Shown here: piece by piece, positions 23,105-63,127 of the stretch
How the letters are laid out: each line of letters begins with the position of its first letter
Position numbering within the stretch: position 1 is the first letter of the stretch
Assembly (NCBI GenBank): GCA_964035545.1
Contig: OZ037768.1
Location: 24,330,819 to 24,394,818 of the forward strand
DNA length: 64,000 bases
Direction: 5' to 3'
From: Bugula neritina
Taxonomy: Eukaryota > Bryozoa > Gymnolaemata > Cheilostomatida > Bugulidae
Position numbers and translations under genes: made by a program
The notes under the pieces: model-generated
What the model was told of the DNA's origin: nothing
The model's input: only the letters and a program-made list of their open reading frames with translations
Database searches by the model: none

Positions 23105-26100
23105 TTACGTTCGAAATTCATGGATTTTTCTGTGACGGAGAAAAGTCCCACTCTGTCTGAATCTCTTGCCACATACATCACATTGATAGGGTTTCTCTCC
23201 AGTGTGAGTTCTCATGTGAGTGGATAACGTACATCTGTCTCGGAAATACTTCTTACAATATACGCAGACGTATAACTGTTTCTGCTGGTGATCCTGTGAC
23301 ATGAATAGAAAGAAAGGCAAGTTTATGCAAACTCACATCAGATATAGCAAGCAGATGTCTTTAACACAGTCTGTTCTCCAGCTTCACAAAGGAAACAGGA
23401 TATAAACTTTGAACACAAATTTAAGTAAAATTGCAAATGATCTGTATTGTAAATTCTTTCTACTAACTTCTATTGTATAAACTCTAGAGTTGATGTGGAA
23501 TCAAGTTTCTATTTATAAGAAAATAAAATGTATTGCAGGCTTGCGACTCACTATAACCGTCAAGAAATGTCTACTGGAACTACACACCCACTTTATATGC
23601 ATTAAACATCTTTTCAGTTTGAAAATTTCTTCACTTTGATAAAAATGAGAAGCTAGAGAGTAAAATCAGTAGCTATTAATAAAATGGCTCATTTTCATGA
23701 TTATAAAATTTTCACTTTTCTTGTAAAACGTTTCTTTTTAACTGGTAAACGAGTTTCCAGCTTGAGGATTGATAGAATTCAGTTTTATAACGTTTTGAAC
23801 ATAACATACTTTCACAAAAATTTAAAACTTTTTGGGCAAGCAATGAGAGATAAGTCATAAAGAAGCATGGAATTACCTGTAAATGTTGAAGATATTGACT
23901 GGGCGTGCTCAGTTGAGAGAAACATATGTCACAAGTATACACCATAGCGTCTTCATGTGTTGCCACGTGTGCTCGGTAATCTCGAACTTGTCTGTAGGAT
24001 TTACTGCATACCTGTAATGGTAGAATACTCTTACACCAATTGTTGTAAGTTTACAACTCTTAGCCAAGGGCCACACGGTGCGTATTTTCGCGTGCGAAAA
24101 TTGAAATCACAAGTAGCAAAGGTGTCCACTGTGCGCGTTGAGAAAACCTTCGCCCTTGTCGCTCTGCATTTTCAACGCAAGTGCGAATCGTCTCTGTCGT
24201 CGTCACCTAATTGGCTGGTAGCTATTCAGCGAGCCCAATTTCTTTATTTAGTGCTATATTCCAGTAAATTGCGTTTTATTGAAAGCGAGTGCGATTTAAA
24301 AATGAAAGCTTTATTTATCACGCATCACTGACGCTACAGTGGACACCTTTGCTACTCGTGATTTTAATTTTCGCATGCGAAAATACGCACAATGTGGCCC
24401 TAGGCTAAGTGCACATCTTTAATTAGAATATCAAGTTTACAACTCTTAGTGTATCTCCCTAATCGAGGCAATATCTTGCAGGTGAAAATATTGACTGGTT
24501 TGGAGACTAAATGTAAATTTTATTAAAGTAAAACAATTCTATTGTGCTAATTTATAAATAAACTTTGAGCAACCACTAAAATAGTTTTTATTTTGTAGCT
24601 TAGATTATTTTGTAAGTAACAAAAATTGACTTTATATATGTATATGTATACGTATACATATATGTATACATATATGTATACATATACGTATACGCATACA
24701 TATACGTATACGCACACCCACACACACGCACCCGCACGCGCGCGCACACACATATATATATAATAATGTAAGTTATTAGCTGACAGGTGTAGGGATTGGG
24801 ATATTTAGAACATAGCTTGAAGACGATGTTTTCACGAGTTAGATTTGGTGTCTTTATAATGTCCTCACTTTTGCCTGATGTTAAGGTTTTGATTTGCTCT
24901 TTGTTGGATCTAAAAATCAACACTTGGAGCATTATAGTTTCAATTACAGAAGCAATATTTATATGCATCAGCAATACTATTATAGTAACTTACAGAATTG
25001 CATTCTCAGCTGCTTTTCCTAGATTAGTTACTGTATAGTAAATATACTATATTATATAGTATATATATACTATATTATATTATATTATAGTATATATACT
25101 ATATTATATTATAGTATATATACTATATTATAATATAATTAAACAAGAATCTTTCAGTAATGCTGATGGTTCAGTCATGAATTCAATATTATTTCTCAAA
25201 GCCAATTTGCACAAAAATTGCAATATGTCAAAAATGTTTTCATATAGAAAAATTTTTAAAAGAAAGTTGGATTAGTTTTATGTGTTGAAGATGTTGAATG
25301 TATGTATCTACAATTTGCTTTACTTACATCTTAATAATGATTGGTTAATGAATATCTTACAAACACCTTTAAACTCATAACTTATAATAGGAATATACTA
25401 CAGATTAAAGTATGCAGTGTTACTGCTTGAAATTACCTCCCCACTACAAATGCCACCAATTTTATAATATTACAGGTTTCAAAACCTATCTTTACCGAAA
25501 CTCTCCATTTCTGTGAGACCCATGATGCGACTTATTCGAAAGATCATGTGACACGGCAGCAATAGGCATATCGCATTTTATATTCAAACATCTTCAGTCT
25601 AAAGACATTGATTATTGCTCTTTCCCCTACCTCCCATATTTTGTGTCATTAAAGAAATTAATAAATGTGTAATTTACATACAAGTCTGTATAAAAAAACA
25701 AAATTTTGCTATAAATACATTTTGCTATGCAAATGACAGTTTATTATTATCTAATATATCTTTGCAGTACACAAAGCATTCCGTCAGTTGGATTGATAAG
25801 TCTTTAGACTTACTATAATAGAAAAGTTCTACAATTCAAAAGCTTGAGCAAGACTTGTATCACTAATGATTTTGAAGATATTTTTATATACATTTCTGAT
25901 AAATTTTAGTGAAAAATACTTCAAATAGTCAATCAAGTTAAAATGTGCAATTACACCAAAATATTCCAAAAATAGGTATTGGTAGGGTAAACTGCTAAAG
26001 TATATTAGTATAATTGAACATAGTATGTGGTATCGTAAAATATGGCACCAACAGAATGGAGAAATAATCGTAAACGAGCAGTAAGTCATTTTAAGTTGGT

Positions 26101-29100
26101 GTTTTACTTGAGTCACCAGGCAGAAATCATTTTATAGGATGAGAAAAGAACCATTTATTTGAAAATATTTGTAGCATTAAAAGTCAGCTATAAATACCAA
26201 ACCTATTTGATAACTTGAAACAAGTTATCTACTTACTTTTCTACTTACTTCTCTACTTACTCCTCTACTTACTTCTCTACTTACTTCTATACTTACTTCT
26301 CTACTCACTTCTCTACTCACTTCTCTACTTACTTCTCTATTTACTTCTCTACTCACTTCTCTACTTACTTCTCTACTTACTTCTCTATTTACTTCTATAC
26401 TTACTCCTCTACTTACTCCTTTACTTACTTCTCTACTTGCTTCTCTACTCACTTCTCTACTTACTTCTCTACTCACTTCTCTACTTACTTCTCTACTTAC
26501 TTCTCTACTCACTTCTCTACTTACTTCTCTACTCACTTCTCTACTTACTTCTCTACTTACTTCTCTACTTACTTCTCTACTTACTTCTCTACTTACTTCT
26601 ATACTTAAGGACTTACCTCTCTACTCAGGGTGATAGTAGTATAGTGAGTGTTGTCATGACAGCAGCCAGTAAATGTCAATAACTAGGGTTATACTAGATT
26701 AAATGTCAACTTCTCAACCATGCAGGAGCTATGCTAGGATTTAACATCTAGTCAGCACGAAACTAAGTGATTTGTATTCTTTTTGAAAACTAATTGCTTG
26801 GAATTGAGAAATGCAGGTACTTTGAGTATATGCCAAGGTGACATACAGGAAGCATGAGTTACTTCTCTCTAACCCTGCATTCAACAGATAATTAGCTTCA
26901 TTCTCTACCCCCCTCCCCCACCCACCCCCTTATCCTGCTCCCCATGACAACGTTGCTTACAATATTTATGAAAATGTCTTATCAAACTGTGTGTTTTTGT
27001 TAACAAAAGGTACATTATATGTAAGATAATACTGAGATGACTGCAGAAGAAGAAATGAATGAAACTGAACAAAAGAAAACACATTGAATATTATGTTCCG
27101 CCAAAAATTACGAACCACACCATGCTAAACAGAAATAAACACAATTTTATAGTTTACAAGTGGTTAATTCAAACTTTCAATTTTCAATTTCTGTTTATTT
27201 ACTTTAAGTAGGCAGCTGATTTCATCCGGGCTTAGATGACGGCCACATTTACTCGTGCCTGGGAATTCATCTTCTAGACCGAAATACATCTCTTACAGTA
27301 ATCACTATTTTTAACATCAATTATTGCGTGCCATTTAGTTCTCACCAGGAATGCATCTATCAATCATTCACAGACCTGTGGTTGGCATAATTTAGGGAAG
27401 GAGAGCCAAGAACTACTGGATATAAACCACAAACAGATGGATGTCAGCTTATTCTAAGAAAAAGGGGAATCCCCTTGAAGTCACTAATGGTCAATAAATC
27501 AGGGCTATCCATCAAAATCCTGAAGGGTGTGTCGGGCTATGTTATTAATTATAAAGTTATGTATAATATTATGTATATTACATTCATTGCATTTCTCTGA
27601 ATTCGGTAAATTGTATTTATCCTTAGTACAAAGTTTTGCTAAAGGGTACATAATCTCAATTCCAGTGTAACAACAACATTCAGTATTTCCAACCATTATA
27701 GTGTTGAAGGTTTTTATATGCTGACTGGTAGAAGTAGTCAAGGGGGGGATAATATCTTCACATTTTTGTAAACCTTGTAACTAGTTAACCTTTCAATGGC
27801 TAAAGTAACGTGTAATAATAAGCTATATTAAAATAAGAAAGTATAGTAAGTAGAGTATTATAGCGTAGCGTAGCGTAGTATAGTATAGCATAGTATAGCA
27901 TAGCATAGTATAGTAAGTATAGCATAGCATAGTATATAGTAAGTATAGTATAGTAAGTACAGCATAGTATAGTATAGTAAGTATAGTAAGTCTGGTGTTA
28001 TAGTGAGGAATGTAAGGGAGATGCTAAAATTATTATGACCAATTCAAGTGCCTGGATGCAATGACTCATCTCTGGTGTGCGCAAGCAATGACATATTATA
28101 TAGAAAAGCGTGCAGTGTGGGTGCGTAGTAATAACACGTAACATACAAGCATCTTCTATTTATAAACCTGGTTTTAGTCTCACTTACATGTGTCCATCTT
28201 GCACGTTTTCCTGTAAAACAGAAATGAAACACCAGTTACCTGACTACCAGTTAACTGACTACCAGTTAACTGACTACCAGTTAACTGACTACCAGTTAAC
28301 TGACTACCAGTTAACTGACTACCAGTTACCTGACTACCAGTTAACTGACTACCGTGTTTCAGTACATACTTTGTAGCAGGAGCAAATTAAAATGGCTGAA
28401 CGCATTTGGTCAGCATAACTTCATTGTTTCTTGTAAATATAAGAGTTGAAATAAGTTGAAATGACTTGGAAAGGCTGGTGAGACATAATTTATTGGTTCC
28501 AGCTGATTGGCTGGTTCCAAATGAAGGCGATTTCAGTTTGTTATTTTGTTCTACTTTATTATTAGGTTTGCAAAATAACTATACATTTGCGAGTTTGACT
28601 GAAATGGGTGTCAAAACATTAGCATAGCTAAAACTATGACTAAAACAATACGCCAGTCTATTTATACTCAGATCTCTTGCTTTTACAAGCCCTGTGAGCT
28701 ACAAACAACTAAAATTAAATGACAGCATATGTTTGGTCAATTATAATCAGGCAACTATATTCAAAAGCTTAAAATAGCAGAAATTTTATTTAAAACTATG
28801 AGTACCTGTTCGTTAGAGTTTAGAAAGTGAGTCACAGCGTCTGGGGTGGGATTAGAGTTTAGGAAGGCTTTGTCTCCTGTAAAATATTTAAACAGTTGAG
28901 ACTCTCAATTCACCCATGCAGCTGTGTTGTAGTGAATAATAATTTAAGTTAATAAGCAATGCCTCCCATAATACACACTGACACACGGAAACTGTGTATG
29001 CCATAATACACACTGACACATGGAAACTGTATATCTCATAATACACAGACACATGCAAACTGTGTATCTCATAGTACACACTGACACATGGAAACTGTGT

Positions 29101-31541
29101 ATCTCATAGTGCACACTGACACATGGAAACTGTATATCTCATAATACACACTATTTTCAATCATTTAAGTTAATGCAGCCTTCTGAGATCACTTGAGATA
29201 TGATAGACAATAATATCACAAGTAATTTTGCATTTCACTGGTTAGTAGAACTTTGATATTGTTGCAATGAGCCTTCAATTAAAACAGCTTTTTGATTGGC
29301 TAAAAATGGTCTTGAAATAAATTACTGTAAAGTAGTCATTCCACGGGTTTTGTATTAAATCTTTATTCTAGACAAGTTTGCTTTTAAAATATTCACATGG
29401 AAGATAGTAGGTAGTAAAAAAGGACATGCCACATTGACTAGGATGCTCTGCTGCCAATATGGTGGCTATAGTTCACTGCAGAAATAATATTCTGCAGTAG
29501 ATAATCTGTAATAACTATGAAACATACCACTTACTCTACTCAAATAACCCTTAGCGCAACTTGTCTTTCTAAAACCTTGAATCAAAATCTCTAATATATT
29601 CACAACTCTACCTTTGATGGGTTTAATAAATTCCCCTAGTGGTGAGAGAGTTAGGTGAATAAATCTTCTTAAAGGATTGCTCTATCTTGTCTAATAAATG
29701 GCCATTTAGGTCAAACACACATAATATTGTGATTTTCTAAGCATGAATTGACAAAAAGCATTTGACCAAAGGTAGAAAAAGTTAGTTGAAGTTGAGGGTG
29801 TAGATTGGTAACAGCCAAAACGCCGATTTTGAAATGAGCTGGGAAATGTGACGTAACAGCGCCAGCATTCCTGCTGGTCACGTGACTATACAAATGAATA
29901 ACTATAGAAATATGACTGTGAGATGTGATCTTTCAGCTCGTAATTTGTATATTTATAGAAGTGCAAATGTGAATTATCTCAATCTATAGTTTTTTGACAT
30001 GTTAAATAACATGTATGTGATAACATTAGGCCATATTTTGCTTGTAAACATAGAAAAAAGCATTGCAAAAACATGCATTCTTTAGGATGAATGCCTGCGA
30101 TCGATCTAAACTAGGTCAGATTGTGCAATATTACGGGCACACCAAAGCTGACCTATATAGCGCACTGTAACTGCTTGAGCGTTATTGGTTGATGTTGCGC
30201 TCAGCAACCTTGCATACTTGCACGTGCAGCATAGTTACTGGCGTTCACACGTCACGTATTAGGCTATTCTTTTTCATGGCTGAAAATTTTACCTCCCTCA
30301 AAATTGGAATTTTGAAAAGCTGTTTTCTAGGCATATATCCTTTTGCAAAGTCACAATTGTTTGCATACACATTAGATTATAGCTCATAATTATAATGTGA
30401 TTGTAATAAACTAAGATAGAGCAATCCTTTAAATGTTCTATTTGAAGAATGACTTTCAATTAACAGTCATGAATCACCGTTGGTATATAACTTATGACTA
30501 GTAGCTGTTAGAAAGTGGCCAAGCTCATTGGGGCATACCAGCAAAATTTTGTAGATCGAGATTGATTAAAAAAGTGTAGTACTTTAGCACAGATGGCTGG
30601 CTTTGCCAATTATAGCCTTTTAATTTGGTCTTGTAATGCTAACAGCAAAAAAGTGGTTTTCCAACATCAGACAAGTGCCATATGACAACACAGGATGCTG
30701 AACGCAGGCGCACAATTGCAAGTTCTAACAGTTTTGTAGGAATTTTCTAACTGCAGGGGAGTCACATTTCACACCTAAATGTCAAACCAAAAAGCTGTCA
30801 ACTACATCTAAGTGAATTAAGTCTAGACCTGTACACCAAACCGCAACATCGTGACTTCAACATATAAATTAATTTCTATTCTCAACACTTTAACGTAAGT
30901 CTTAACATACAGTTTCAGTTTGTTTTCTCTTCACGAGATAAAGTCTATCATTCTGGTAACTATATACTTAAGTTTATATACTTTAAATTATTCCCAGCAC
31001 AACACTCCACATACCTTTAGACTTGATAGAGTTGCAATCATATAATGAGAATTCCCTTGGGTCTTCTAATTGCCAATATGTGTTGTAAGATGATTTAGTA
31101 TCACTGTAAGTTAGTGTAGTATCACTGTAAGATGATGCACTATCACTATAAGTTGGTGTAGCTTCACTGTAAGTTAGTTTAGTATTACTATAACTTGGTG
31201 TAGTATCACTGTGAGTTAGTTTAGTATTACTATAACTTGGTGTAGTATCACTGTGAGTTAGTGTTTCACCATAAAATGTTCTGTTCTTATTTAGATGAGT
31301 TCTCAAATCAAGTGCTTGTAAGTTGTCTTCCCACTTTGGATAGTGTGAGTACGCTGGATAGTCAACTCTGAGGCCATCTCCTTCTACAAACAGTGTTGAG
31401 ATGTTCAGAATAGAGTACTGAGTCTAATTGAACGCCAAGTAGACACACCAAACAGTACTCACTTTTCATACCTTGAAGATGGCTGCCCTTGACTGATAGG
31501 TCTAAAGGTAGAGCGTATTCCTCACATTGCCTACTCATCAT
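23105..31541 (-). CDS. C2H2 zinc-finger paralogue A (7 exons; one splice donor lost)
   Basis: Exons 5' to 3': 31472-31541, 31015-31383, 28806-28876, 28188-28210 (23-base microexon), 24780-24909, 23877-24011, 23105-23293 (stop). Phases agree throughout and the sum 987 would give 328 aa. Residues 12-16 are PLDLS, the classic CtBP co-repressor docking motif. Exon 2 holds about 11 copies of a 7-residue Thr/Ser/Tyr repeat (TYSDTTP type) between a conserved WEDNLQALDLRTH block and a PREFSLYD block. The last exons encode four C2H2 fingers with a TGEKPY linker between fingers 3 and 4. It is probably a nuclear DNA-binding repressor. Odd: after the exon ending NPYTCQ (24780), the next bases are CT, not GT as in B and C, and a TA/CA microsatellite follows. 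As drawn, the two halves cannot be joined by a normal intron, so A may be a pseudogene or use another donor. Confidence 0.75.
24063..24405. mobile_element. MITE with about 70-bp TIRs in an intron of zinc-finger gene A
   Basis: Left arm starts GCCAAGGGCCACACGG and continues through TGCGTATTTTCG, CAAAGGTGTCCACTGT; the right arm is its complement, ending GTGGCCCTAGGC, with only scattered differences over about 70 bases. TA lies outside both ends, within a CTTA/TAAG context. The interior has no recognisable coding. The homologous intron in paralogue B lacks it, so the insertion postdates the duplication. Confidence 0.75.
24632..24765. repeat. TATG/TACG/CA microsatellite next to the lost donor of gene A
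   Basis: Compound TATATG, TATACG, CACACA and CGCGCG repeats ending 15 bases from the expected splice junction at 24780. Confidence 0.9.
25034..25138. repeat. TATAGTATATA microsatellite
   Basis: Alternating TA with interspersed C and G, forming several short inverted repeats; in the long intron of gene A. Confidence 0.85.
26228..26612. repeat. 12-bp (CTACTTACTTCT) array in an intron of gene A
   Basis: About 32 units of CTACTTACTTCT and one-base variants. It gives long open frames on both strands (YLL- and REVS-type repeats) only because the unit is a multiple of three. Minus-strand units contain AGTAAGTAG, another donor-like string. Confidence 0.9.
27843..27996. repeat. TAGTATAGCATAG array
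   Basis: Irregular 5-base-based array (TATAG, CATAG, CGTAG, TAAGTATAG) in the intron between the microexon and exon 5 of gene A. Confidence 0.85.
28232..28354. repeat. 15-bp (CCAGTTAACTGACTA) array beside the microexon
   Basis: Eight copies of CCAGTTAACTGACTA, starting about 22 bases upstream (minus strand) of the acceptor of the 23-base exon of gene A. The unit contains the palindrome AGTTAACT. Confidence 0.9.
28962..29155. repeat. 35-bp minisatellite in intron 2 of gene A, shared with gene C
   Basis: About five copies of a unit containing CACACTGACACATGGAAACT. The same unit lies at the homologous place in gene C (61830-61935), so the array predates the split of these paralogues. Confidence 0.85.
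29673..30428. mobile_element. TTAA-flanked TIR element in intron 2 of gene A
   Basis: Termini AGGATTGCTCTATCTT and its complement AAGATAGAGCAATCCT, each bounded by TTAA (29669-29672, 30429-30432). This pattern fits elements that duplicate TTAA (piggyBac or Kolobok type). At 756 bases with no recognisable transposase it is non-autonomous. Confidence 0.75.
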
Positions 31542-32920: not shown

Positions 32921-33601
32921 TTAGCTGATTCTTTGGTGGTAGTAGTGATGGAGGTGGTAGTTGTGGTGGTAGTTGTGGTGGTAGTGGTGGTGGCAGTGGT
33001 AGTGGTAGTGGTGGTAGTAGTGGTGGTGGTAGGTAGTGGTGGTAGTGGTAGTAGTAGTGGTGGTGGTAGTGGTGGTAGTGGTAGTAGTAGTGGTGGTGGT
33101 AGTGGTGGTAGTGGTAGTAGTAGTGGTGGTGGTAGTGGTGGTAGTGGTAGTAGTAGTGGTGGTGGTAGTGGTGGTGGTGACATCACAAGGCACGTTAGAT
33201 TGGTAGTCATACCTCTGGTTTATAGGACAAACTCGTAGTATTGTGTTATAGTTGGCGCACTGATAGTATCTGCTGCAGGAACAAGGATCAGCCTTGAGTC
33301 CTTCTGCTTCAGTGCACACAACATCTGGGGAATTACAGTAGTATGCATCACATTTGGGGACTTACAGTAGTATACACAACATCTGGGGAATTACAGTAAT
33401 ATACACACATTATATGTTATAGTATCTGTACATTATGGCATAATGTGTTTTCTGGTATGAGTATCATATTATTATGATCATACTCACCATCTCCACAAGT
33501 AGTAGTGGTAGTCATAGGCATTACTGTAGTGGTAGTCATAGGCATTACTGTAGTGGTAGTCATAGGCGTTGCTGTAGTAGTAGTCAGTATTGAAAGATTA
33601 G
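32921..33601 (-). CDS. Alternative 3' end or second gene: mucin-like exon plus partial chitin-binding domain
   Basis: Two exons in phase: 33488-33601 (Thr-rich, three copies of PMTTTT-type repeats, ending TTCG) and 32921-33324. The second opens with a type 2 chitin-binding (peritrophin-A) domain: Cys spacing C-x5-C-x9-C-x13-C matches, but the sixth Cys is missing because the domain runs into poly-Thr coded by (ACC/ACT)n. A shift inside the triplet array then turns Thr into Tyr/His until a stop. No signal-peptide exon is found for it alone, and both introns are phase 1, so it may be spliced to the upstream exons at 35.3 or 34.6 kb. Alternatively it is a decaying duplicate of the 34.1-kb exon. 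Confidence 0.55.
32933..33178. repeat. (GGT)n/(AGT)n triplet array, coding Thr on the minus strand
   Basis: Imperfect trinucleotide array with a higher-order unit of about 33 bases (GGTAGTAGTAGTGGTGGTGG inside). It codes the Thr tract of the minus-strand exon. The Gly/Ser and Val frames on the plus strand are shadows. Confidence 0.9.
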
Positions 33602-35575: not shown

Positions 35576-35607
35576 TGTAGTCTGCAATCAGGTGAGTAGT
35601 TATAGAG

Positions 35608-39915: not shown

Positions 39916-40038
39916 ATTGTCAATTGGTCAATACGATCATATGATCGCTGAGGACACGCCTACTAAATGACAGCTCATTTTCGCAAGGTGAAATTAGTAC
40001 ACCAGTACAAGTGTAGGAGCAGTGACTGGGCATGTGCA
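39916..40038 (+). promoter_or_regulatory. Conserved promoter block of gene B
   Basis: CAATTGGTCAA near 39919, GAGGACACGCCTACTA at 39950-39966 and GTGACTGGGCATGTGCAC at 40021-40038, the last 32 bases before the ATG. The same boxes in the same order precede genes A and C. Confidence 0.6.
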
Positions 40039-40069
40039 CTATCAGTGAAGTCAGCCTTCTAGAGCAGGT

Positions 40070-43000
40070 ATGATGAGTCAGCAATGGTATGGATATGATT
40101 TACCATTAGATTTATCAGTCAAGGTCAAGTATGTTCAAGGTATCTGATATAAATATATTTAAAATGCTAAATTTTGTTTGCCTGGCAGGCCTTAGGTTCA
40201 ACATTTCAATATGAAGACTGAACATTTTCTGTAGAAGTAGATCATGGCTGCAAACGCAATTCTCCAGTTCATGATCGAAAATCGGAATGGGAAGACAATT
40301 TACAAGCACTCGATTTAAGAACTCACCGAAATAAAGAAACCACAACTATGCACAGTGACACTACACCAACTTATAGTGATACTACACCAACTTACAACAC
40401 ACATTGGCAGTTCGAAGATCTAAGAGACTTCTCATTTTATGATTATAATGTCAACATGTCTAAAGGTATGTGGATTGTTGTATTGAGATTAATTCAAACC
40501 ATATCACATAATTTAGTAATAACAAAAAATTTAGAATTTATCTGGTCAAGAAAAAACAAACTGAAACTATATGTTACGACTTATATTAGAGTGTTAAAGA
40601 TGGATACCAAATCATACCTTTATAAAAATGCAGAACATCCAGTAATAGTTTATTGTTGGTGATGGTATGCACCAGTCATTATAGTTAAAGAGATTTTATT
40701 AATCTCTTTAACATAAAGAAACATTATTTCAATGTTCTAGAAGTGCATTATAGTGAGTTACACTGACACTGACAATTGTGAAAACATTGATAATTATTAA
40801 AACCCAGTCGCATGTATGCATTTAGAGTTTCAACTGTTAAATTCTTTTATAGAAGACAATATCCTCCTGGACTCTATTCCCACTCCAGACGTTGTGACTC
40901 TCTTTCTGGGCTCTAACAAACAGGTATTCAGATTTTGGAAAATAAGTTATACTTCTTTCTACTTTAGAATAGTTTAATGATTAACCCAACGTTTGTTAAC
41001 ATATAATTTAGTTGTTTGCAGCTAACATGACGTTTAAGATTATAAAATCTTTGTATATAATAACTTGCTTATTGCTTTACTCATAGTTTTAGCTATGCTA
41101 CTGTTTTGACACTCATTTCAGTCAAACTTACAGATTTAGTTATTTTGCAAACCTAATAATACAGCAGATCCAGACCCCAAAATGGTAATCTTCCATCCAT
41201 CAGCCAAAACCGCTAAATCATGTTTACCAATATGCAAATAATATGCCATTAGCCATTTTGAACTGTGTATGAGTATTATTAATCATGCATAATGTGCACC
41301 TGTGAGAGAGACTGTACTAACACCAGAGTTATAAATAGCATCATCATGTCTTTAAAGTATAGCAATTGCTACACTTTCACTTGATACAATAGTTACTTAC
41401 TTACTATACTTACTCTACTCTACTATACTATACTATACTATACTATATACTATACTATATACTCTACTATACTATACTATACTTACTATAATACTATATG
41501 CTATACTATATACTCTACTATACTATACTATATACTATACTATATACTCTACTATACTATACTTACTATAATACTATATACTATACTATATACTCTACTA
41601 TATACTCTACTATATACTATACTATACTATATACTATACTATATACTCTACTATACTATACTATACTTACTATAATACTATATGCTATACTATATACTCT
41701 ACTATATACTATACTATACTATATACTCTACTATACTATACTATACTATAATACTATATACTATACTATATACTATACTATATACTATACTATACTATAC
41801 TATACTTACTATAATACTATATACTATACTATATACTCTACTATATACTATACTATACTATATACTATACTATATACTCTACTCTACTATACTATACTTA
41901 CTATAATACTATATACTATACTATATACTCTACTATACTATACTTACTATAATACTATATACTATACTATATACTCTACTATATACTATACTATACTATA
42001 TACTATACTATATACTCTACTATATACTATACTATACTATATACTATACTATACTATATACTATACTATATACTCTACTATACTATACTATACTTACTAT
42101 AATACTATATGCTATACTATATACTCTACTATATACTATACTATACTATATACTATACTATATACTCTACTCTACTATACTATACTTACTATAATACTAT
42201 ATACTATACTATATACTCTACTATACTATACTTACTATAATACTATATACTATACTATATACTCTACTATATACTATACTATACTATATACTATACTATA
42301 TACTCTACTCTACTATACTATACTTACTATAATACTATATACTATACTATATACTCTACTATATACTATACTATACTATATACTATACTATATACTATAC
42401 TATATACTTATTATAATACTATACTATATACTATAGTTACTACTCATTATATGTACTATACTATACGTGCTATACTATATCTGTTCAAAGTTGATTTGGT
42501 GCAAATTTCTCAGAAAGTTAAAGATATTTGCTCACTTGACTATATTTCTACCATGTGGTCAGCATATACAAACCTTCACACTAATAGTTAAAAATACTAA
42601 ATGCTGTTTTACATAATAATAATAATTGAGATTTTTATGCCCTTCTAGCAAAATTTTGTACTAAGCCAAGTACAAACTGCTAAGTTCTGGGAAATGTAGT
42701 GCATGATAGAGCACTGATTAATGAAGATTAACATTGATTTATAAGCATTTAGGGCAGGGCTGTCCAACAGGCGGCCCCAGGGCCGCATGCGGCCCCCAAG
42801 CCTACATTTATGTGGCCCTCAAAGGCATAACCAATAAAATTATTTTGCACACATATATGAATTGGAGTAGAAAAACTACCTTTGAAATGTCTTATTAATA
42901 TGCATGCTAAACACATGCAGCCTGCAGTAATTATTGGTACTTCATTGTGAATGATTCATAAGAATTTGGGATAAAGTAATTTGAAAATTGCTGAATATGC

Positions 43001-45942
43001 TGTGCCCCCCCCCAGCCCAAGTTAAATTTTACAGTGTGGCCCTCACCATAGAATATTCCATTTCAGTGCCCTCACTCTGCTTTTAAATGGAGGTTGGACA
43101 CTCCTGGTTTAGGGGATTCACCTTTTCCTTGAAATAAGTTAACCCCCATTAGCTTGTGGTCTATAGCCAGAAACCAGCAGCTGTTGGCTCTTGTTATTTT
43201 TAGAATATGTAGGCAGCATATCTGCAAATGATTGACGCAGCACATGTTTAGATTAGTGAGAACCAAATGGTACCACATATTTGTTGCTACTGGCAGTAGT
43301 CATTACAGCACAAAGGTCTCTTAGGCTGGCTGATAAACAACTCTACTACTTGTAATAATCACAACAGATCTCTTTCTACAAACTTGAGAAAGTAACTTAG
43401 GTCAATATGGCTGCTATCTAAATCAGCTGCTTTAAATGAAAGCTTAAGCAACATAACTGTTCAAATAATGTTTAAATAAATCCCTGTGAATGCTACAAGT
43501 ATATCTTTTAGACCAAATGGAAGACAGAATAAAAGACTTTGAAGTTGCACACTCTATTCTTAAGTATATTTTTAATACGTGCTTAAGTTACGATTTTAGT
43601 AGCATGCTTTTAATGAACCGTTTAGTCCTTCTGCTCAGGAAACATTACAAATACAAGCATTCAAATTATCAAACTTATAAAATAACTCCAACTTCTTTTC
43701 ACTAAGTTTCTTATGAATATGAGGTAATAAATTTGTTAAAACTTTAGTATTAATTGCTAGCTGTTTGAATAAGCTTTAATATATTGTGTTGAATTTTTAA
43801 TTTTTTCCTAATCGTCAGTCATATAATAGAAGATATCCTTGTCTAATTGTAGCTCTTGGTCTAAAAATACTGCAGAAATAAATATATGCCATACTTTGTT
43901 TATCAATTGCATGAGCAACATATTAGTTGTCATATATTTGAAAGAGATATCTTTACTGTAAACTGTGGCAGCCAAATGAAGGTCAAAGGCAAGACAAAGG
44001 TGAAGGTCAACATGTCATGAGCACACCAAAACTTCCGACTCAGCAAACTGTCATATTCAAGGCATGTTCTGAACGTACAAATCCCTACACCTGTCAGGTA
44101 TAATTACTTATACTAGTCTACTCTTACAGTATCCAGATGGTTTCTGGTCTTCGGCCCCCTCAAGGCTACTTTCAGCTGATTGGAGTTGTTCTCTCTTAGA
44201 TATCCAAATACCTTTTCACTATAAGGAAGTTAATATTATTCTTGAGCAAATTTTACTTTTTGATCAAAGCTACAAATATTTAGTATATCTAAACCAGGCT
44301 TCTAGAAATCTATCATCATTAGAATCAAAAAAATAAATTTTACAATGAAAAAGGGTAAACTATAAGTTCAACAACCTGCCAAGCTGTGTTTGTCCTAAGA
44401 TATGGCAGTTATGTCATATTATGTCATGTTGTGTTTAGTATGTTTGTGATGCTAGTGTGTTGAGTATATCATATGCTATTATACTATATGTTGTGGTGCT
44501 AGTGTAAGTTTAGTATATCATATGCTAGTTTACTATATGTTGTGGTGCTAGTGTAAGTTTAGTATATCATATGCTAGTTTAGTATGTGTTGTGGTGCTAG
44601 TGTATTGAGTATATCATATGCTATTTCTAAGGTCTTACTTTCAATCAAAGAATTAGATTTTCATATATTTCTAATGAATAAGTAGAATAACTGCTTAATT
44701 GTGAGATACCATTCATTATATAAGAATAATATCTGTAAACCAATTAGTATTGACAGATCTAAACAAATAGCTGAGATATGAAACCAGTCAATATTTTTAC
44801 CTGCAAGATATTGTCTTGATTAGGGAGATACACCAAAAGTTGGAAACGTATACAGCGGTTAGTGTAAGATTATTATAACATTGCAGGTATGCAGTAAATC
44901 CTACAGACAAGTTCGAGATTACCGAGCACACGTGGCGACACATGAAGACGCTAATATATACACGTGTGACATATGTTTCTCTCAACTGAGCACGCCCAGT
45001 CAATATCTTCAACATTTACAAGTAATTCCATACTCCTTTACCATTGATAACTCACTGCATGCATGTGTGAAAATATCTTTAAGCTTTTTGTAAAAAAATT
45101 TCATATTTAGAATAAAACTGATTTTATGACTGCTGAGACTTGCATAGAATTTAGACTATTACTAATTGAAAGAAGATTGTTGGTAAAACTATTGCAATGT
45201 GAATAATTATTTAGGGAATTTATTATATGTATAATAGAATAAAGTTGACCAGTTTATTAATTGACAGGCCATCTTGTTTTAACTAACTTCTTCTTGTCTG
45301 TCACATTTTTAAAAACAAATAAATTTTGGGGCTAAAACTGAAAACACATCTGATGCAGGAAAGTCAGTGGGGGGAAGAGGAAGGGCTGTCACCAGTAGCT
45401 CCAAAACATTCTGCATGAATAAGCAAGCTTATCTCTAATAATGTGATATGCAGTTCATTTTAGTTTTTACTGGTTTTTAAATATATTTTCTATTAAAGCA
45501 ATTTCTTAGCTGTTTAGTGGGTTGAAATACATTTTCCCTTCACTTAAATAAAACAAAGATTCCACATCAACTTTAGAGCTTTCTGCTCATATCCTAGAAG
45601 TTACCAGAAGACTTTACGACACATTCGCATCTAATCATACTTTGAGACTTTATAAGTTGTTTCCTTCATGAACTTGGAGAGCAGACTGTGTTATAGTTTT
45701 GTTTGTTATATTTAATGTGAATAAACTTGCAGTTTTATCTGTTCATATAACAGGGTCATCAGCAGAAGGAGTTATACGTCTGCGTATACTGTAAGAAGTA
45801 TTTCCGAGACAGATGTACGTTATCTATTCACATGAGAACTCACACTGGAGAGAAACCTTATCAATGTGATGTTTGTAGCAAGAGATTCAGACAGAGTGGG
45901 ACTTTTTTCCGTCACAGAAAAATCCATGAATTTCGGCCGTAA
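40070..45942 (+). CDS. C2H2 zinc-finger paralogue B, intact, 273 aa
   Basis: Exons 40070-40139, 40235-40465, 40853-40923, 43972-44097, 44887-45021, 45754-45942 (TAA), all GT-AG and in phase; sum 822. PLDLS at residues 12-16 is a CtBP-type motif. Exon 2 keeps the EDNLQALDLRTH and RDFSFYDY blocks with only two units of the Thr/Ser repeat. Exon 3 is short and acidic (EDNILLDSIPTPDVVTLFLG). Fingers: C165/C168/H181/H185 (split by an intron after residue 166), C193/C196/H209/H213 (split after 211), C221/C224/H237/H241 and C249/C252/H265/H269, with linker TGEKPY before the last. There is no KRAB, BTB or SET domain in the six exons. It is expected to be a nuclear sequence-specific factor, probably a repressor if the CtBP motif works. 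I do not recognise a named orthologue. Confidence 0.88.
41394..42475. repeat. 1.1-kb compound CTATA satellite in intron 3 of gene B
   Basis: Arrays of CTATA, CTATATA, CTCTA and TTACTATAATA combine into a higher-order unit of about 150-230 bases. Long open frames of Leu/Tyr/Ile through it are artefacts. Confidence 0.95.
42755..43106. mobile_element. Non-autonomous hAT element, 352 bp
   Basis: Termini CAGGGCTGTCCAAC and GTTGGACACTCCTG are near-perfect hAT inverted repeats. The flanks ATTTAGGG (42747-42754) and GTTTAGGG (43107-43114) are an 8-bp target duplication with one change. Subterminal GCGGCCC-type boxes (GGCGGCCCCAGGGCCGCATG) are typical of this group. No coding sequence. It lies in intron 3 of gene B. 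Confidence 0.85.
43110..43450. repeat. Intron segment homologous (inverted) to 54.8-55.3 and 60.27-60.55 kb
   Basis: On the minus strand this reads GAGATCTGTTGTGATTAT, GTAGAGTTGTTTATC and GTGCTGTAATGACTACTGCC in the same order as gene C intron 3 near 60310-60420, and partly near 55290-55316 and 57657-57683. It shows the pre-insertion state of the gene C intron. Confidence 0.7.
44420..44635. repeat. 60-bp-class repeat in intron 4 of gene B
   Basis: Three to four copies of a unit with GTTGTGGTGCTAGTGTAAGT and ATATCATATGCTA, between the exon ending NPYTCQ and the first full finger exon. Confidence 0.75.
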
Positions 45943-50000: not shown

Positions 50001-51734
50001 TCAAAGCTTATGGATTTTTCTGTGACGGAGAAAAGTCCCACTCTGTCTGAATCTCTTGCCACAAATATCACATTGATAGGGTTTCTCTCCAGTGTGAGTT
50101 CTCATGTGAGTGGATAACGTACATCTGTCTCGGAAATACTTCTTACAGTATATGCAGACGTATAACTCCTTTTGCTGGTGACCCTGTTATATGAACAGAT
50201 ATAACTGCAAGTTTATTCACATTAAATATAACAAGCGGATTTATACCAACACAATATGTTCTCCAGGTTAACGAAGGAAACGGGTTATAAAGTTTACAGG
50301 TATATGATGAGTATTGTAAAGTGTTGTAAAGTCTTTCTGGTAATTTTTATGGTAGAAGCATAAGGGCCCAAAGTTAATGTTAACTTTTTATTTAATGGAA
50401 GGGAAAATGTATTTCAAAGTTACAACTTACTATAAAATCCCTAAGAAGTTGCTTTAATAAAAGATATACTTATGAAACTAGTAAAAACCTTATAAAATAG
50501 AACAAAGGGTATATTATGTTATTAGAGTTATGCTTGCTTATCCATGCAGAACGTATTGGAGCTACTATAGTTCACCCCCTCCCCACCACTTGCCTGCATC
50601 AGATGTGCTTTCAGTTTTAGTTCTAAAATTTATTTGTTTTGTAAAATGTGAGAGGCTAGAAGAAGTTAGTTAAAACAAGTAGCCATAGAACCTAACAGTT
50701 GGTAAACTGCATGGTTGACTTTATTCCATACAAATATTAAATTCATTGTCAACATTGAATAGCCTAGTTGGCAGTCTTTTTTCAGCTACCAATAGTCTGG
50801 TAAAACAGTCCCTTTTTAATTATTAATAGTCTAGATTTTAGTTAAATCTCAGTAGTCATAAAAATTAGTTTTATTCTAAATATCAATTTTTTTTGCAAAA
50901 AGCTTAAAGATATTTTTTAAACATGCAGTGAGTCATCAACCATAAGAGAGTATGGAATTACTTGTAAATGTTGAAGATATTGACTGGGCGTGCTCAGTTG
51001 AGAGAAACATATGTCACACGCGTACATCATAGCGTCTTCATGTGTCGCCACGTGTGCTCGGTAATCTCGAACTTGTCTGTAGGATTTACTGCATACCTGC
51101 AATGTTATAATAATCTTACACTAACTGCTGTAAGTATCTAACAGAGAGCAACTTTAATTGGCTGAAAGTAGCTGTGAGGATTGTCTTTTTAACTGAATAT
51201 TACAAGAGTTATAGATTAATATAAGTCAATACCTGGCAGGTGTAGGGACAAGTAGACTCAGAATATGGCTTCAAGATGATGGTTTGTTGAGTTGGAAGTT
51301 GTTGCGTTATACTTTCACCTTCACCTTTGGCTTGACTTTGACTTCCACCTTTGGCCGAAGCCAGAGCTTTGTCCTGCACCTCATTTGGCTGCTGTAGCGA
51401 AGAGTGATTTGAAATGTTTGACAACTAATATGTTGCACATGTAATTAATAAAAAAACACAGCATATTCTAGTTAGGTTATTTTTAGATCAAGAGCTACAA
51501 TTAGACATGCATCTTTAAGTAAGGCTGATAATTAAAATAAATCAAAACTTCAAAATCAAAAATTCAGATTATCCGAGCAATTAACACTAAAGTTCTACCA
51601 AATTTGTTATACTTCATATTCATGAAAAATTTTAGTGAAAAGAAGTTGGAGTTATTTTATAAGTTTGATAAGCTAAACACACATATTTGTAGGTTGTTTT
51701 ACATAGACAAGTACTGATTGGTTAAACTAGAATC

Positions 51735-51999: not shown

Positions 52000-52800
52000 A
52001 ATTTAATGGAGACTCTATACATCTTACAAAATTTGGAAAACACGATTTATGAACTACGAGTATTTATATACACTGGACTGTGGCGTACACAAAGCCATCC
52101 TTCCATTACCAACTGATGAAACTGAAGACACAGACTTTAATAAGAAAAATAGAAGAGCATATGCCTAGTTGGTACAAGTGCTAGACGAAAAATCACTTCA
52201 ACTCATAATAAAGGATGCTGAGAATGATGGACGTAATGCTTTGACAATTCTAAGAGACCTTTATGCAGGCACAGAGAAACCTTGCATCATGACACTCTAC
52301 AAAACTCTAACTACTATTACTATGACTGACACTGAAAACGTTACTGACTATCTAATACGTGCTGAATGTGCTGCCACAGGACTCAGACTAGCAGGTGAGA
52401 CTATATCTGACAATCTAGTGATAGCTATGCTATTAAAAGGATAGTTCACACGCAGAGAGAATCAAGAAAAACATTAAAAGAATTTAAAGCTGCCCTACAC
52501 AATCATGCTAATACCTGTCAGAGCTACTGCACATGCAACAGCACTAACAGCTCAAGAAGATAATAATTACAAACCCCAAGTATGCACTCGTACACAACCT
52601 AACCCGCAGCCAGTCAACAAACAATGCCTCTCATGTGGGTGCACTAACCGCAGCACCAGGGAATGCAGATCAAAATTTAAACTCATATGTAACTTTTGCC
52701 ACAAAAATGGACACATTGAAAGCGTATGTTTCCAGGAAAAGAAAACACGGAGTGCACTACACACATCAACTCACCAACCTACAAACTTTACACATAATGC
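52000..52800 (+). pseudogene. Copia gag remnant with two zinc knuckles
   Basis: Pieces in different frames: a helix-rich UBN2/gag-like part at 52169-52444 (RDLYAGTEKPCIMTLYKTL), then knuckles near 52626-52725. The first, CLSCGCTNRSTREC, has Arg in place of His. The second, CNFCHKNGHIESVC, is intact. Stops at 52168 and 52443 break the frame. Confidence 0.8.
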
Positions 52801-54429
52801 CAGTCTAACACAGGCTGACACAACTACACACAAATCACTCAAACAAAACTTGACAAGACACAAACTACTAGTTGACTGTGGAGCTCCTTACCACATTATA
52901 AATGACAAAAGCCACTTTACAAGTTACGACTCAGACTTTAACCCAAATAAACATTACTTAAAACTTCCTGACAGATCGACATAGCAGCAACACACTGGCT
53001 ATAGCAAGAGGAGTAGCTGAATACATTTTACTAGATAACAGCAACACACCTCACGCAGCCAGACTCACAAATGCACTGCTAGCACCAGAATTCCCAGCAA
53101 GCTTATTCTCTGTGAGAGCTGCAACAGACAAAGGAGGTACAGTAATATTTACTAAAAATACAGCCAAACTGACTTCCCACAACACTACATTCAACTTAAT
53201 CAGGGATGAAAATCTATTCTTTCTGCCAACGAATACAATACAGCAGACTACAACCACTGTGACTGACCACACAACCACAACTAGACCTCAAACAGCTAAC
53301 TTGACAAAAAATCTAAAACCTACTGAGAAAGCATACATAGCTGAATCAACTTTGGCAGCCAAAACCCTTCATGAATGGCACCTAGCCTTAGGACACATGA
53401 ATGATGACATTCTCTCCCTGGAAAAAGGGATGCAAGGAATGAAAATTGCAAACACTAAAACTACAAATTGCCAAGTGTGTACAGAAAACAAACTTACACG
53501 ACAACCAAAATCAGAGGACATTACAGAGATGCTACAAAACTTTTGGAATGTGTGCATACAGATATATGTGGACCGATAGAACCTACATCACGTACAGGAC
53601 ACAAACACGTGATAAAATGTGTTGATGAATACACTAGCATGTTGTTTGTATACACTCTATGCACAAAGAATGAAGCAACAACTGCCCTTAAAAGGTTCAT
53701 TTCTGACATAGCACCCATTGGAAAGGTTAAATAAATACATAGTGACAATGGTTAGGAATATGTCAGCAATACGTTTCAATCTGTTTTATAGAACATTGGC
53801 ATAAAACACTCCACTACAGCTACCTACACTCCGTATCAAAATGAGAAAGCTGAACGACATGGTGAAGTTTACTGGTGATGGCCCGATGCATAGTATCCGA
53901 CTCTTCTCTACACAAGTCTTACTAGCCCTACGCTGTTCACTTAGCCCAATATCTGAGGAATCGTGCCTACCAAAGACGCACTGGAGCCACTGCTTACAAG
54001 ATGTTCACAGAGATTAAGCCAGATATGAAGCACATACACAGAGTTGGATTGCCATGTACATTCTACATTGGAGGCAAAAAGCAGAAGCTGGACCCACATG
54101 GTCAACACGGCACTTTCCTAGGGATCGACCCACTGAACCAATCATATTATGTATTGAATGGCAAGAACAATAGCATACTGACTACATGCAACATACACAT
54201 ACACCAGGATTCTGACAATACTGACACCACATTTACTGACTTTGAACATACTGACGAAGTACAAACTACATTAATGCAAACAGAGCAAGCTACTTACAAT
54301 GAACAGAAAACTCCAACAATTTCAACCAACACAACTCCAACAATTTCAACTGACAGACCAAAATGTAACACAGGACTACCAAAATACCTTGCTGATTACT
54401 ACACCATGGCTACAATTGACTACGCCTAA
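52801..54429 (+). pseudogene. Copia protease-integrase remnant
   Basis: Protease start LLVDCGAPYHII has DCG for the catalytic D-S/T-G. The GAG-pre-integrase finger (HEWHLALGHMNDD ... CQVCTENK) is at about 53370-53490. The integrase core keeps D in HTDICGP (53553), D in HSDNG (53739) and E in YQNEKAERHG (53840), but these sit in several frames split by stops and indels. The C-terminal integrase part (IGGKKQKLDPHGQHGTFLGI) is in the frame at 54001-54429. No polymerase follows. Confidence 0.85.
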
Positions 54430-57937: not shown

Positions 57938-58353
57938 TGTGGACAGTCAACAGTGGGGGAGAAGTGAATAGTGGAAAAGAAATAAAGAGTGAAGCAAAAT
58001 CAAATAGTGGAGTCTGGAGAAAAATAAAATTGTGCCTAGTGGAGAAGAATCAATTTCAAATAGTGGAGAAGAGCAGAATCAAATAATAAAGGGGAGACAA
58101 ACAGTGGAGAGTAACTATAAAAGTTTATTTCGAAATACAATTGTTGGGTTTAGTTTCAGTCTGTTTTATCGGTAGAGTAAGTGAGATTTAGAGGTGCTGG
58201 TAAGAGTGGAGAAATTAACAATAAAGAGTAAGAGTTAGTGGAGTGATCGTGAAATAATAATATCATTATTTATAATTTGGTTAGAATATTAGATTTCATT
58301 AATTTAAGGGTTATTGAGCTTTCTGATGGTGGTAATTAGAATTTTAGACCATA

Positions 58354-59373
58354 ATGGCAACTAGCACTAGGCTCACCAACCTCAATCAGTTTCCTATGGT
58401 AGTTTTGAGCTCCGATAATCAGAGTGATGGTTTTAAGAAATGGTTAGTAAAGTACAACCTGGCAGTTCGATTAGCAACCCTTGAAATGGGTACTGAAATG
58501 CTGTCCAATATTGCAGTAAATAGATTTAGAGGTGAAGCTAAGTTTTTAGCTTTGCTCAATGCCATTGGAGATAAGGGTATTGATGTGTTACAATCTTTAA
58601 GATTTGATCTTGAAAGGAATTTAAGATTCGTTGAAGGGGCTAATGTAGAAGACTCTAGACAAAGGTTTGCTATTAGTATGGCAGTAGTTGGTTTAAGAGA
58701 CAAATATCTTAGAACACAACTTATGCTTAATGAAAATATCACTTGGAAAGTGTTGTCTGATATTTTGAAGACTAGGAATATTGCTAGAGAATCTGCTACA
58801 ATGGTTTCTAAAATTAGATCTAGTAGTTCTAATTTGAATAATAACTTTGCTAACATAGCTGAAGTTAGAATTAAGTCTGACAGAGTAGCAAGTAGAAGGT
58901 CATCTCACTATGATAATGATAGACATGAAGGTAGATATAGTTCTAGAGATAATAGTCGTGATTATTCTCACCACAAGTCTCCAGATTATAGGAGTAGACA
59001 TAGAGCTAGCAGTAATAGTAGTAGTAGCAGTTCAGACAGTTTATGTTACATTTGTCATAAACCTGAACATGTTGCTAGGCATTGCCCAAAAATAAGATGC
59101 TATGCATGTGGAAAACATGCCCACATTGCAAGAGACTGCAGAATGCGTAAGGCTCAGAAAGACGAAGATTACTCTAGTAGAAGTAACTATAGAAGTCAAG
59201 GGAGTAGTAGTTCAGATAGAGAATGGTCAGTGGATAGTAAAGATAGTTCTTCTTGGAGATCACCTAGAACTAGAGTTGTCAGGTCTAGTAAGGTTAGGTT
59301 TATTGATAGTGAACCATACGATAGAGCGGAAACATGGAAACAGAATCTAAGTGTTAATAGTAGAAATTGTTGA
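58354..59373 (+). CDS. Retroelement Gag with two CCHC zinc knuckles, 339 aa, intact
   Basis: Starts MATSTRLTNLNQFP; residues 1-165 form a helical capsid-like region, about 165-230 are an SR/Arg-Ser-rich linker, then knuckles CYICHKPEHVARHC (231-244) and CYACGKHAHIARDC (249-262), and a second Ser/Arg-rich tail. The whole frame is open although the element has no polymerase. A protease start in the +1 frame follows directly (VEFVLDTGADVSKITED, 59366-59440) and stops at 59441. It would act as a virus-like-particle structural protein if expressed. I could not decide between Gypsy and BEL affinity. Confidence 0.85.
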   Translation: MATSTRLTNLNQFPMVVLSSDNQSDGFKKWLVKYNLAVRLATLEMGTEMLSNIAVNRFRGEAKFLALLNAIGDKGIDVLQSLRFDLERNLRFVEGANVEDSRQRFAISMAVVGLRDKYLRTQLMLNENITWKVLSDILKTRNIARESATMVSKIRSSSSNLNNNFANIAEVRIKSDRVASRRSSHYDNDRHEGRYSSRDNSRDYSHHKSPDYRSRHRASSNSSSSSSDSLCYICHKPEHVARHCPKIRCYACGKHAHIARDCRMRKAQKDEDYSSRSNYRSQGSSSSDREWSVDSKDSSSWRSPRTRVVRSSKVRFIDSEPYDRAETWKQNLSVNSRNC

Positions 59374-59880: not shown

Positions 59881-60001
59881 TACATAGAAGTTGGTACTTT
59901 GTGCTACCAGGCTAACTGGTATTTTGGTGTTACTGCTCTACCCGACAAACCACTCAGTTCTATGCATTACTTTAGACTACTAAATTCCTCAAAGGGGAGC
60001 A

Positions 60002-60865: not shown

Positions 60866-60867
<2 letters not shown>

Positions 60868-60950
<83 letters not shown>
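60868..60950. repeat. (TA)n microsatellite
   Basis: About 40 TA units, left of the palindrome. Confidence 0.95.
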
Positions 60951-60954
<4 letters not shown>

Positions 60955-61025
60955 CGTAGCGTGAGTTTTTAAAAAACAGCAGATGAAAAAGTGCTCAAAT
61001 TATTATGTGTATAATAATGAGCAAT

Positions 61026-61324
<299 letters not shown>

Positions 61325-61827
61325 AAATAACTAATTTAGCAGTTTGGCTGAAATGAGTGTCAAAACATTAGCATATCTCAGCGTCATGACTAAAACAATA
61401 AGTCAGTTATTTTATAAACATATTAGTTTATATTTTAGAAGTCCTGCTAACTGCAAGCAATTAAACTTAAATGGAAAATAACTTCTGAATTGGAGGACTA
61501 TTCTAAACTAAAATAAATATCAAAACATATTTCCCAAAACACGAATACCTGTTGGTTAGGAATTAGAGAGTGAGTCACAACCTCTTGAAAGGGACAAGAG
61601 TCCAGGAGGTTATTGGCCTTGTCTCCTGTAAAATAGTTTAAATGCTGAGACTCTCAACGCACCAATACAGCTGTGTTTTAGTCATTGTCAACTTCAGGTG
61701 GTGTGAAAAAATTTCACAGGGTAATTTATTTGTATTTACATTTCTATTCACTAATCTAATTTTACTCAAGCATAACACTCTAAATTCATGCATAAAAGTT
61801 ATTATGCTAGAATTAGTTAATAATTGC

Positions 61828-61935
61828 AGTGTATCTCATAGTACACACTGACACATGGAAACTGTATGACTCATGGTACACACTGACACATGGAAACACT
61901 ATATCTCCTAGTACACACTGACACATGAAATGTGC
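61828..61935. repeat. 35-bp minisatellite of gene C, shared with gene A
   Basis: Three copies of the CACACTGACACATGGAAACT-type unit, at the place homologous to 28962-29155. Confidence 0.8.
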
Positions 61936-62159
61936 TTGATATCTATTTTCAACACTTTAACATAAGTTGTAACATGCAGTTTCAGTTTGCTTTCTCTTTG
62001 CCAGGTAAAGTTTGCATTTTAGTTATTACTAACTTATATGTAAGTTTACTGACAGTGTGATATGATTTGAATTATTCCCAGCACAAAGGTCTACGTACCT
62101 TTAGACTTAATAATGCTGTAATCATATAATGAGAATTCTCTTGAATCTTGTTACTGCAA

Positions 62160-62810
62160 AAATGTGTTGTAGCATCACTGTAAGTTAGTATAGTATTATT
62201 GTAAGTTGGTGTAGTATCACTGTGAGTTAGTTTAGTGTCACTATAAGTTGGTGTAGTGTCACTGTGAGTTGGTGTAGTGTCACTGTGAGTTAGTGTAGTA
62301 TCACTGTAAGTTAGTATAGTATTATTGTAAGTTGGTGTAGTATCACTGTAAGTTGGTGTAGTATCACTGTGAGTTGGTATAGCATCACTATAAGTTGGTA
62401 TAGCATCACTGTAAGTTAGTTTAGTATCACTATAAGTTAGTATAGTGTCACTATAAGTTGGTATAGTATCACTGTGAGTTAGTGTAGTAACACTGTAAGT
62501 TAGTTTAGTATCACTGTGAGTTAGTGTAGTATCACTATAAGTTGGTGTAGTGTCACTGTGAGTTAGTTTAGTATCACTGTTAGTTAGTGTAGTGTCACTG
62601 TGAGTTGGTGTAGTATCACTGTAAGTTAGTATAGTATCACTGTAAGTTAGTGTAGTAACACTGTAAGTTGGTGTAGTAACACTGTAAGTTGGTGTATTAA
62701 CACTGTAACTTGGCATAGTATCAGTGTAAGTTGGTGTGCTGGTACTGTGAGTTAGTCTAGTGTTACCATAAGTTAGTATATTACCACTGTGAGTTGGTGT
62801 AGTATCAATG
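62160..62810 (-). repeat. Expanded 21-bp coding minisatellite in exon 2 of gene C
   Basis: About 30 copies of a 21-base unit that codes TYSDTTP/THSDTKL-type heptads on the minus strand. It is open over more than 600 bases. The homologous array has about 11 units in gene A (31087-31270) and two in gene B (40352-40394). Confidence 0.9.
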
Positions 62811-63127
62811 CAAATAGTCCTACTTTTCTTATTTCGGTGAATTCTTAAATCAAGTGCTTATAAATTGTCTTCACATTCCGATTGGCACTCATAAACTGGA
62901 AAATTGCATTTGCTGCCATGATGATGATCTACCTCTACAGAAGATGTTCAGTCTTTATTTTACAAGTGCCTGCAAAGCAAATGCACAAAACAGTACCTAG
63001 TTTAAATATATTTATATCAGATACCTTGAATGTAGTTGACTTTGACTGATAAATTTAATGGTAAATTATATCCATCCCATTGCTGACTCATCCTACCTGC
63101 TATTGTAGAAGGCTGATTTCACTAATA

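Follow-up and report, generated by a model that had tools for sequence, protein, structure and literature searches.

CtBP is bound by proteins that carry a short docking motif, the extended consensus of which is P-x-D-L-S-x-K. Among zinc-finger proteins, ZEB binds CtBP2 through one PLDLS motif and two auxiliary PLNLS motifs (PMC2749851). A comparable pairing of motif and fingers is encoded by three genes, A, B and C, in the DNA analyzed here, a window of 64,000 nucleotides from the bryozoan Bugula neritina (OZ037768.1:24,330,819-24,394,818; feature positions are given in window numbering). A first-pass annotation had placed the group at 23105-63091, and the limits of this span coincide exactly with the end of the gene A stop codon and with the gene C start codon. 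Together with their relatives, these genes probably represent a lineage-specific family of CtBP-recruiting C2H2 repressors, expanded by tandem duplication, for which binding to CtBP is a prediction. The finger part of this reading is firm at the sequence level, and the CtBP part is conjectural. Since animals commonly have lineage-specific C2H2 families, the find is only modestly surprising. In bryozoans, however little studied as a phylum, few regulators peculiar to the group are known, and a bryozoan family with a clear guess at its cofactor would give a handle on lineage-specific gene regulation.

Gene B (40070-45942, + strand) carries the plan in its complete form. Its six exons are separated by introns with GT-AG boundaries in all five cases, and splicing leaves intact the 273-residue open frame that had been predicted. 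Four C2H2 fingers follow one another in register in this protein. The zf-C2H2 model scores 53 bits over four stretches against a Pfam cut-off of 25.2, which places gene B among C2H2 proteins, and across its 18 Pfam rows (E up to 1) only C2H2-type fingers rise above the cut-offs. Likewise, Pfam shows only C2H2-type fingers (E up to 0.001) in four relatives, P0001 from B. neritina and P0005, P0009 and P0114 from Watersipora subatra. Helix residues -1, 2, 3 and 6 are unchanged in fingers 1 and 4, and nearly so in finger 3, across gene B and these relatives: the finger 1 helix reads Q[VA]RDYRA and that of finger 4 reads Q[SI]GTxxR in 5/5 proteins, and finger 3 has Dx[CY]TLxx, with Tyr in P0114 only. 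An extra finger lies ahead of the block in P0005, from residue 179, and a Cys ahead of YTCQ in Bugula (FKAC in gene B) may be its remnant.

Protein searches and Pfam turned up no named family with this plan, as the first-pass annotation had supposed, and no paper naming the family was found, judged by titles and abstract openings; the relatives with the full plan are bryozoan and have automatic names or none. Searching with the 273-residue gene B protein, a check that the annotation had proposed, gave full-plan matches in a second B. neritina assembly and in W. subatra, both species belonging to Cheilostomatida. From the second assembly, P0001 (EB796_016202) has the full plan (58% to B over 99%), P0002 (EB796_006473) resembles gene B exons 1-3 (74% over 45% of B), and P0011 (EB796_010036) is A-like and runs out of frame after exon 5. 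The EB796 gene models come from AUGUSTUS, which was run with a transcriptome as hints (PMC7576161). The W. subatra predictions P0005, P0009 and P0114 are labelled 'che-1-like', 'zinc finger protein 271-like' and 'ZSCAN4-like', respectively. In P0001 and in these three, all of them separate gene predictions, the PLDLS exon is joined to the finger exons, as the annotation had it in genes A to C.

The wider comparison drew on 210 proteins, made up of all 101 matches of one search and the best 120 of 271 of another, with overlap; as this set is whatever the searches returned, its split into bryozoan and non-bryozoan proteins is not a census. P0032, P0060 and P0061 were assigned to the family by sequence, and no taxon is attached to P0032, P0035, P0060, P0061 or P0105. 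The four-finger block was compared in register with gene B, more than 80 aligned residues being required and the best 22 of the 210 proteins reported. Identity was 80% for P0001 and 63%, 60% and 59% for the three W. subatra proteins, whereas the best other proteins among those 22 reached 42-43%; P0011 was not among these rows.

The first-exon motif was read correctly in the first-pass annotation, with PLDLSVK in genes A and B and PLNLSVK in gene C. PLDLSVK, which fits the extended consensus, is also found in a further tandem gene, D, located outside the window. Six-frame translation of the window contains PL[DN]LSVK three times and PL[DN]LS likewise three times; over 30 shuffles confined to 200-base blocks, the respective means are 0 and 0.5. 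All family proteins that reach the N terminus contain PLDLS (7/7: P0001, P0002, P0005, P0009, P0011, P0061 and P0114); P0032 and P0060 begin after the PLDLS position and are left out of this count. The motif occurs in 0 of the other 201 proteins (210 fetched in all, nine of them family), six of which have the looser P-x-[DN]-L-[ST]. The proposed PLDLS four-finger family is thus set apart by a block identity of 59-80% versus about 43% and by PLDLS in 7/7 versus 0/201. A second motif, [AP]LDL[RT], had been overlooked. It is present in 8/9 family proteins and absent from P0009, taking the form ALDLR in Bugula-type proteins and, in the other two W. subatra proteins, the forms PLDLR and PLDLT; in the intact tandem members B and D, LDLR lies about 35 residues after PLDLSVK.

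From Bugula to Watersipora, PLDLS is kept while most of the surrounding sequence changes. Exon 1 could also be read as a read-through of a donor in the 5' untranslated region (CAG/GTATGA in B and D), an interpretation that was set aside because PLDLS is kept at the protein level in Watersipora. With a PxDLS-type motif outside the DNA-binding domain (A, B and D; PLNLSVK in C), the predicted proteins are candidates for the CtBP-docking class. A CtBP exon is present in the same genome (C2 ~9937876-9938199), with an E-value of 7e-38 to CtBP1 versus 6e-8 for the next enzyme family. Because ZEB binds through both PLDLS and PLNLS (PMC2749851), a pair of motifs in one protein is plausible, and so is a PLNLS form in gene C.

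The CtBP-repressor reading is favored because genes B and D are intact, the relatives keep PLDLS and the finger block, the genome holds a CtBP exon and ZEB provides a precedent. The fingers would hold the protein on one DNA site shared by the copies, and PLDLS would dock into the CtBP cleft, aided by the weaker second motif. Docked CtBP would then bring in a corepressor complex, and nearby genes would be switched off. Genes B and D retain the sequence plan as a whole, with a Thr/Ser/Tyr-rich repeat stretch of variable length between the motifs and the C-terminal fingers. Gene C would make a finger protein only by skipping its repeat exon and gene A only by skipping exon 4, unless both are decaying.

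The locus had been described as a three-member family, a count that is too low: with D, outside the window, and E, on contig C7, the family has no fewer than five. When the genome (295 contigs, 215,847,546 bases) was searched with the gene B protein and 141 of 617 candidates were scored, the matches listed included the finger exons of A, B and C and those of two further loci. Identity to the gene B finger exons was 88-92% for D and 64-70% for E, and the other matches listed had at most 73% identity over short finger stretches. Gene D (C4:24397623-24404425, - strand), some 2.8 kb beyond the right-hand end of the window, is intact, with six exons, GT-AG in 5/5 introns, 425 residues and 21 heptad unit cores. 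In gene E, exons 3-6 are present and the finger block is 99% identical to that of P0001. A run of 5,000 N at C7 ~2031628-2036627, upstream of gene E exon 3, may hide exons 1-2. Outside the fingers, the two B. neritina assemblies differ strongly: E and P0001 are 76% and 80% identical in exons 3 and 4, and gene B matches P0002 of the second assembly at the 74% over 45% of B noted above. Cryptic lineages or fast change may lie behind these differences.

In a tree of the finger block, A to D stand apart from the rest with a support of 0.97, E joins P0001 at 0.95 and the three W. subatra proteins group at 0.90; branches within A to D (0.44 and 0.53) and the placement of two outgroup proteins (0.67) are weak. 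This topology suggests that the family multiplied separately in the Bugula and Watersipora lines, the array having presumably arisen by tandem duplication within the Bugula line.

The tandem copies also share sequence upstream. The promoter boxes reported earlier are borne out: all of the tandem copies A to D (4/4) have GACACGCCTACTAAA and GTGACTGGGCATGTGCA without variation. In gene B, both lie in the 5' flank (39930..40069, + strand), and this flank with exon 1 has four genome matches, all inside the array. Selection on the finger exons was estimated as the ratio of nonsynonymous to synonymous divergence (dN/dS; NG86, 306 bases, A to E). The ratio is below 1 in 10/10 pairs; the clearest are the pairs against E (dN 0.10-0.11, dS 1.0-1.3), in which dS is near saturation. 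Among A to D, dS in the finger exons is 0.07-0.18, identity is 57-79% in intron 5 and 44-85% in the downstream flank (the intron alignments of gene A being poor), and gene A differs from the other copies at 16-19 of 66 bases of exon 1. The low dS next to divergent intron 5 sequences suggests that gene conversion keeps the finger exons alike, although constraint on silent sites is a possible alternative. An elaboration that seems unlikely would have the tandem copies compete for one DNA site, with gene conversion keeping their finger exons alike and with exon loss and repeat length tuning either corepressor recruitment (C without the second motif) or the grip on DNA (A without a whole finger 1).

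Exon order is common to A, B and C, as claimed, and the shared intron phases 1,1,0,0,0 hold in outline only. In gene B, exon 1 (40070..40139) is MMSQQWYGYDLPLDLSVKVKYVQ, with the CtBP-type motif PLDLSVK and a phase 1 donor. Exon 2 (40235..40465) is symmetric (1-1) and contains the second motif as ALDLRTH and two heptad unit cores. Exon 3 (40853..40923; phase 1-0) had been called a short acidic exon; it is short, and 'acidic' overstates a net charge of about -3, counted from the translation, so that it is at most mildly so. Exon 4 (43972..44097) ends in YTCQ, which supplies the first Cys of finger 1, and exon 5 (44887..45021) starts with VCSKSY; finger 1 (C-Q-V-C) is therefore assembled across the junction. 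Exon 5 encodes what is left of finger 1 together with the larger part of finger 2, and exon 6 (45754..45942) completes finger 2, which spans both exons, and holds fingers 3 and 4 and the stop.

The first-pass annotation was largely right; besides the copy number, what needs correcting is the equal integrity that it gave to A, B and C. On the minus strand, gene A comprises exon 1 (31472..31541, PLDLSVK), exon 2 (31015..31383, with ALDLRTH and nine heptad unit cores), exon 3 (28806..28876), a remnant of exon 4 (24780..24909), exon 5 (23877..24011; the same parts of fingers 1 and 2 as exon 5 of gene B) and exon 6 (23105..23293; fingers 3 and 4, stop). The exon 4 remnant ends in CT instead of GT, therefore GT donors number 4/5 in this gene. 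Its acceptor is the nearest good one, chosen by the analyst, and with it the length is 1 mod 3, so that the frame is lost too. Without exon 4, the flanking exons meet in phase 0 on both sides (by exon lengths, not translated as one) and three fingers remain, as skipping removes the first Cys of finger 1.

Gene C, also on the minus strand, has six exons with GT-AG in 5/5 introns: exon 1 (63025..63091, PLNLSVK), exon 2 (62099..62934, 30 heptad unit cores), exon 3 (61549..61625), exon 4 (51233..51388, ending in YTCQ), exon 5 (50962..51096) and exon 6 (50001..50183; fingers 3 and 4, stop). In exon 2, just ahead of ALDLR, an in-frame TAA replaces the CAA found in A and B, and the exon is 2 mod 3 in length. 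Because of this stop and frameshift it is not a working symmetric exon, so the annotated symmetric heptad exon stands as regards the array, present in A, B and C, but not as regards its symmetry in gene C. With exon 2 left out, gene C translates as an uninterrupted frame that keeps PLNLS and the four fingers but loses the second motif. The four fingers described for each gene hold for B and, without exon 2, for C, but A is left with three when exon 4 is skipped.

Several points weigh against a bryozoan family of CtBP-recruiting repressors, and they touch its reach, its motifs, the state of its copies and its repeats. At E up to 1, residues 1-160 of gene B matched five proteins (P0001, P0002, P0032, P0060 and P0061). 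No W. subatra protein is among them, and the Watersipora link therefore depends on the finger block together with the motif. Several long multi-finger proteins from other phyla outrank P0114 when whole-protein E-values are compared, as is to be expected where numerous generic fingers contribute to the score. For gene E, exons 1-2 were not found. P0035, a protein of 158 amino acids matching B at 63% over 26%, resembles the last finger exon and apparently starts where the family's last exon does. Being limited to that exon, it could not score in the block comparison with its requirement for more than 80 residues, and because its source taxon is not given, it leaves 'bryozoan only' unproven; P0035 could show the family's reach. 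To judge from these comparisons, the family is real, unnamed as far as the searches show and so far found with certainty only in bryozoans.

As for the motifs, the CtBP consensus has S at the last motif position, where the second motif has R or T, and the Bugula form also has A for P. Short motifs can, moreover, be kept for other partners. PLDLS might thus serve another partner or none, the proteins being activators or architectural DNA-binding proteins that do not involve CtBP. This alternative, which the Thr/Ser/Tyr-rich stretch would accommodate, as it may suit an activation domain too, appears somewhat unlikely given that PLDLSVK matches P-x-D-L-S-x-K, that PLDLS persists in Watersipora amid changing surroundings and that the genome has a CtBP exon.

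An exon is broken in two of the four tandem copies, an observation as compatible with decay as with use. Among the dN/dS values, the weakest evidence of constraint comes from gene C paired with B (0.53, from 0.037/0.071) and with D (0.42, from 0.029/0.069). Ordinary birth-and-death, with A and C as decaying pseudogenes and only B, D and perhaps E at work, has a probability a little short of even. It would account for the lost donor of gene A exon 4, for the stop and frameshift of gene C exon 2, for the weaker constraint in pairs with C and for the copia-type and other gag-like pieces in gene C intron 3; the A-like P0011, out of frame after exon 5, may reflect real damage or a model error. However, the remaining exons of A and C are all open, their other introns are GT-AG, their zinc ligands are intact (A fingers 2-4, C fingers 1-4) and exon skipping keeps the frame (C translated, A by lengths). 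P0011 joins exon 3 straight to exon 5, as A would without exon 4, and loss of this exon may therefore be common to both assemblies.

The exon 2 array is built from a unit of 21 bp, or seven residues, with 9, 2, 30 and 21 unit cores in A, B, C and D, respectively. Its steps are of 7 codons in A and B and of 7, in places 6, in D; gene C has steps of 7, apart from a 14-codon and a 10-codon step close to the ends. No synonymous excess was found among the unit differences: the synonymous shares (A 3/32, B 1/6, C 11/69, D 10/44) lie below the 26% expected without selection, and purifying selection on the heptad sequence was rejected on this ground. The array resembles a minisatellite that stays in frame more than a stretch whose exact letters are preserved. 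That it is instead a functional domain, such as a phosphorylation-tuned low-complexity region, is very improbable. In favor of a domain, the unit YSDTTPT may resemble the heptad of the polymerase II tail, the spacing is 7 or 6 codons throughout A, B and D, the 61 scored units of A to D contain 0 stop codons, and arrays are also seen by eye in P0002, P0032, P0060 and P0061. Against a domain stand, besides the synonymous shares, the copy number ranging from 2 to 30, the single unit or so in P0001 and the density of tandem repeats across the window (81 finder rows, some for the same array).

Other elements lie around the genes. Gene C intron 3 contains copia-type pieces at 52169-54429 (+ strand, opposite to C), with gag and SH3-like matches above the Pfam cut-offs and a pre-integrase match below, and a gag-like open frame of 341 amino acids with a CCHC zinc knuckle at 58348-59373 (+ strand). 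Between A and B, open frames at 32924-33361 and 35285-35587 (- strand) show domain matches below the Pfam cut-offs, to a peritrophin-like chitin-binding domain with a long Thr run and to a PAN-like domain.

Several known systems share part of this architecture. Generic Krueppel-type C2H2 proteins (ZNF568, ZBTB, Kr-h1 and others) have C2H2 fingers, often with TGEKPY-type linkers; their block identity to gene B is at most about 43% in register (best 22 rows), and PLDLS occurs in 0/201 of those fetched. A homeodomain is defining for ZEB and a BTB domain for HIC and ZBTB, and since neither is among the 18 Pfam rows of gene B, it does not belong to these families. ZSCAN4 has zinc fingers, and a direct interaction with CtBP2 has been reported for it (PMC3940611). 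Membership in ZSCAN4 was rejected, as no SCAN domain is found by Pfam in gene B (E up to 1) or in P0114 (E up to 0.001), and the name 'ZSCAN4-like' does not fit the latter. The W. subatra proteins P0005, P0009 and P0114 resemble gene B in having PLDLS ahead of the fingers and a four-finger block at 59-63% identity; unlike the Bugula genes, they have no heptad array visible by eye, and P0005 has a fifth finger. ZEB resembles the family in combining DNA-binding zinc fingers with several CtBP motifs of the PLDLS/PLNLS type (PMC2749851).

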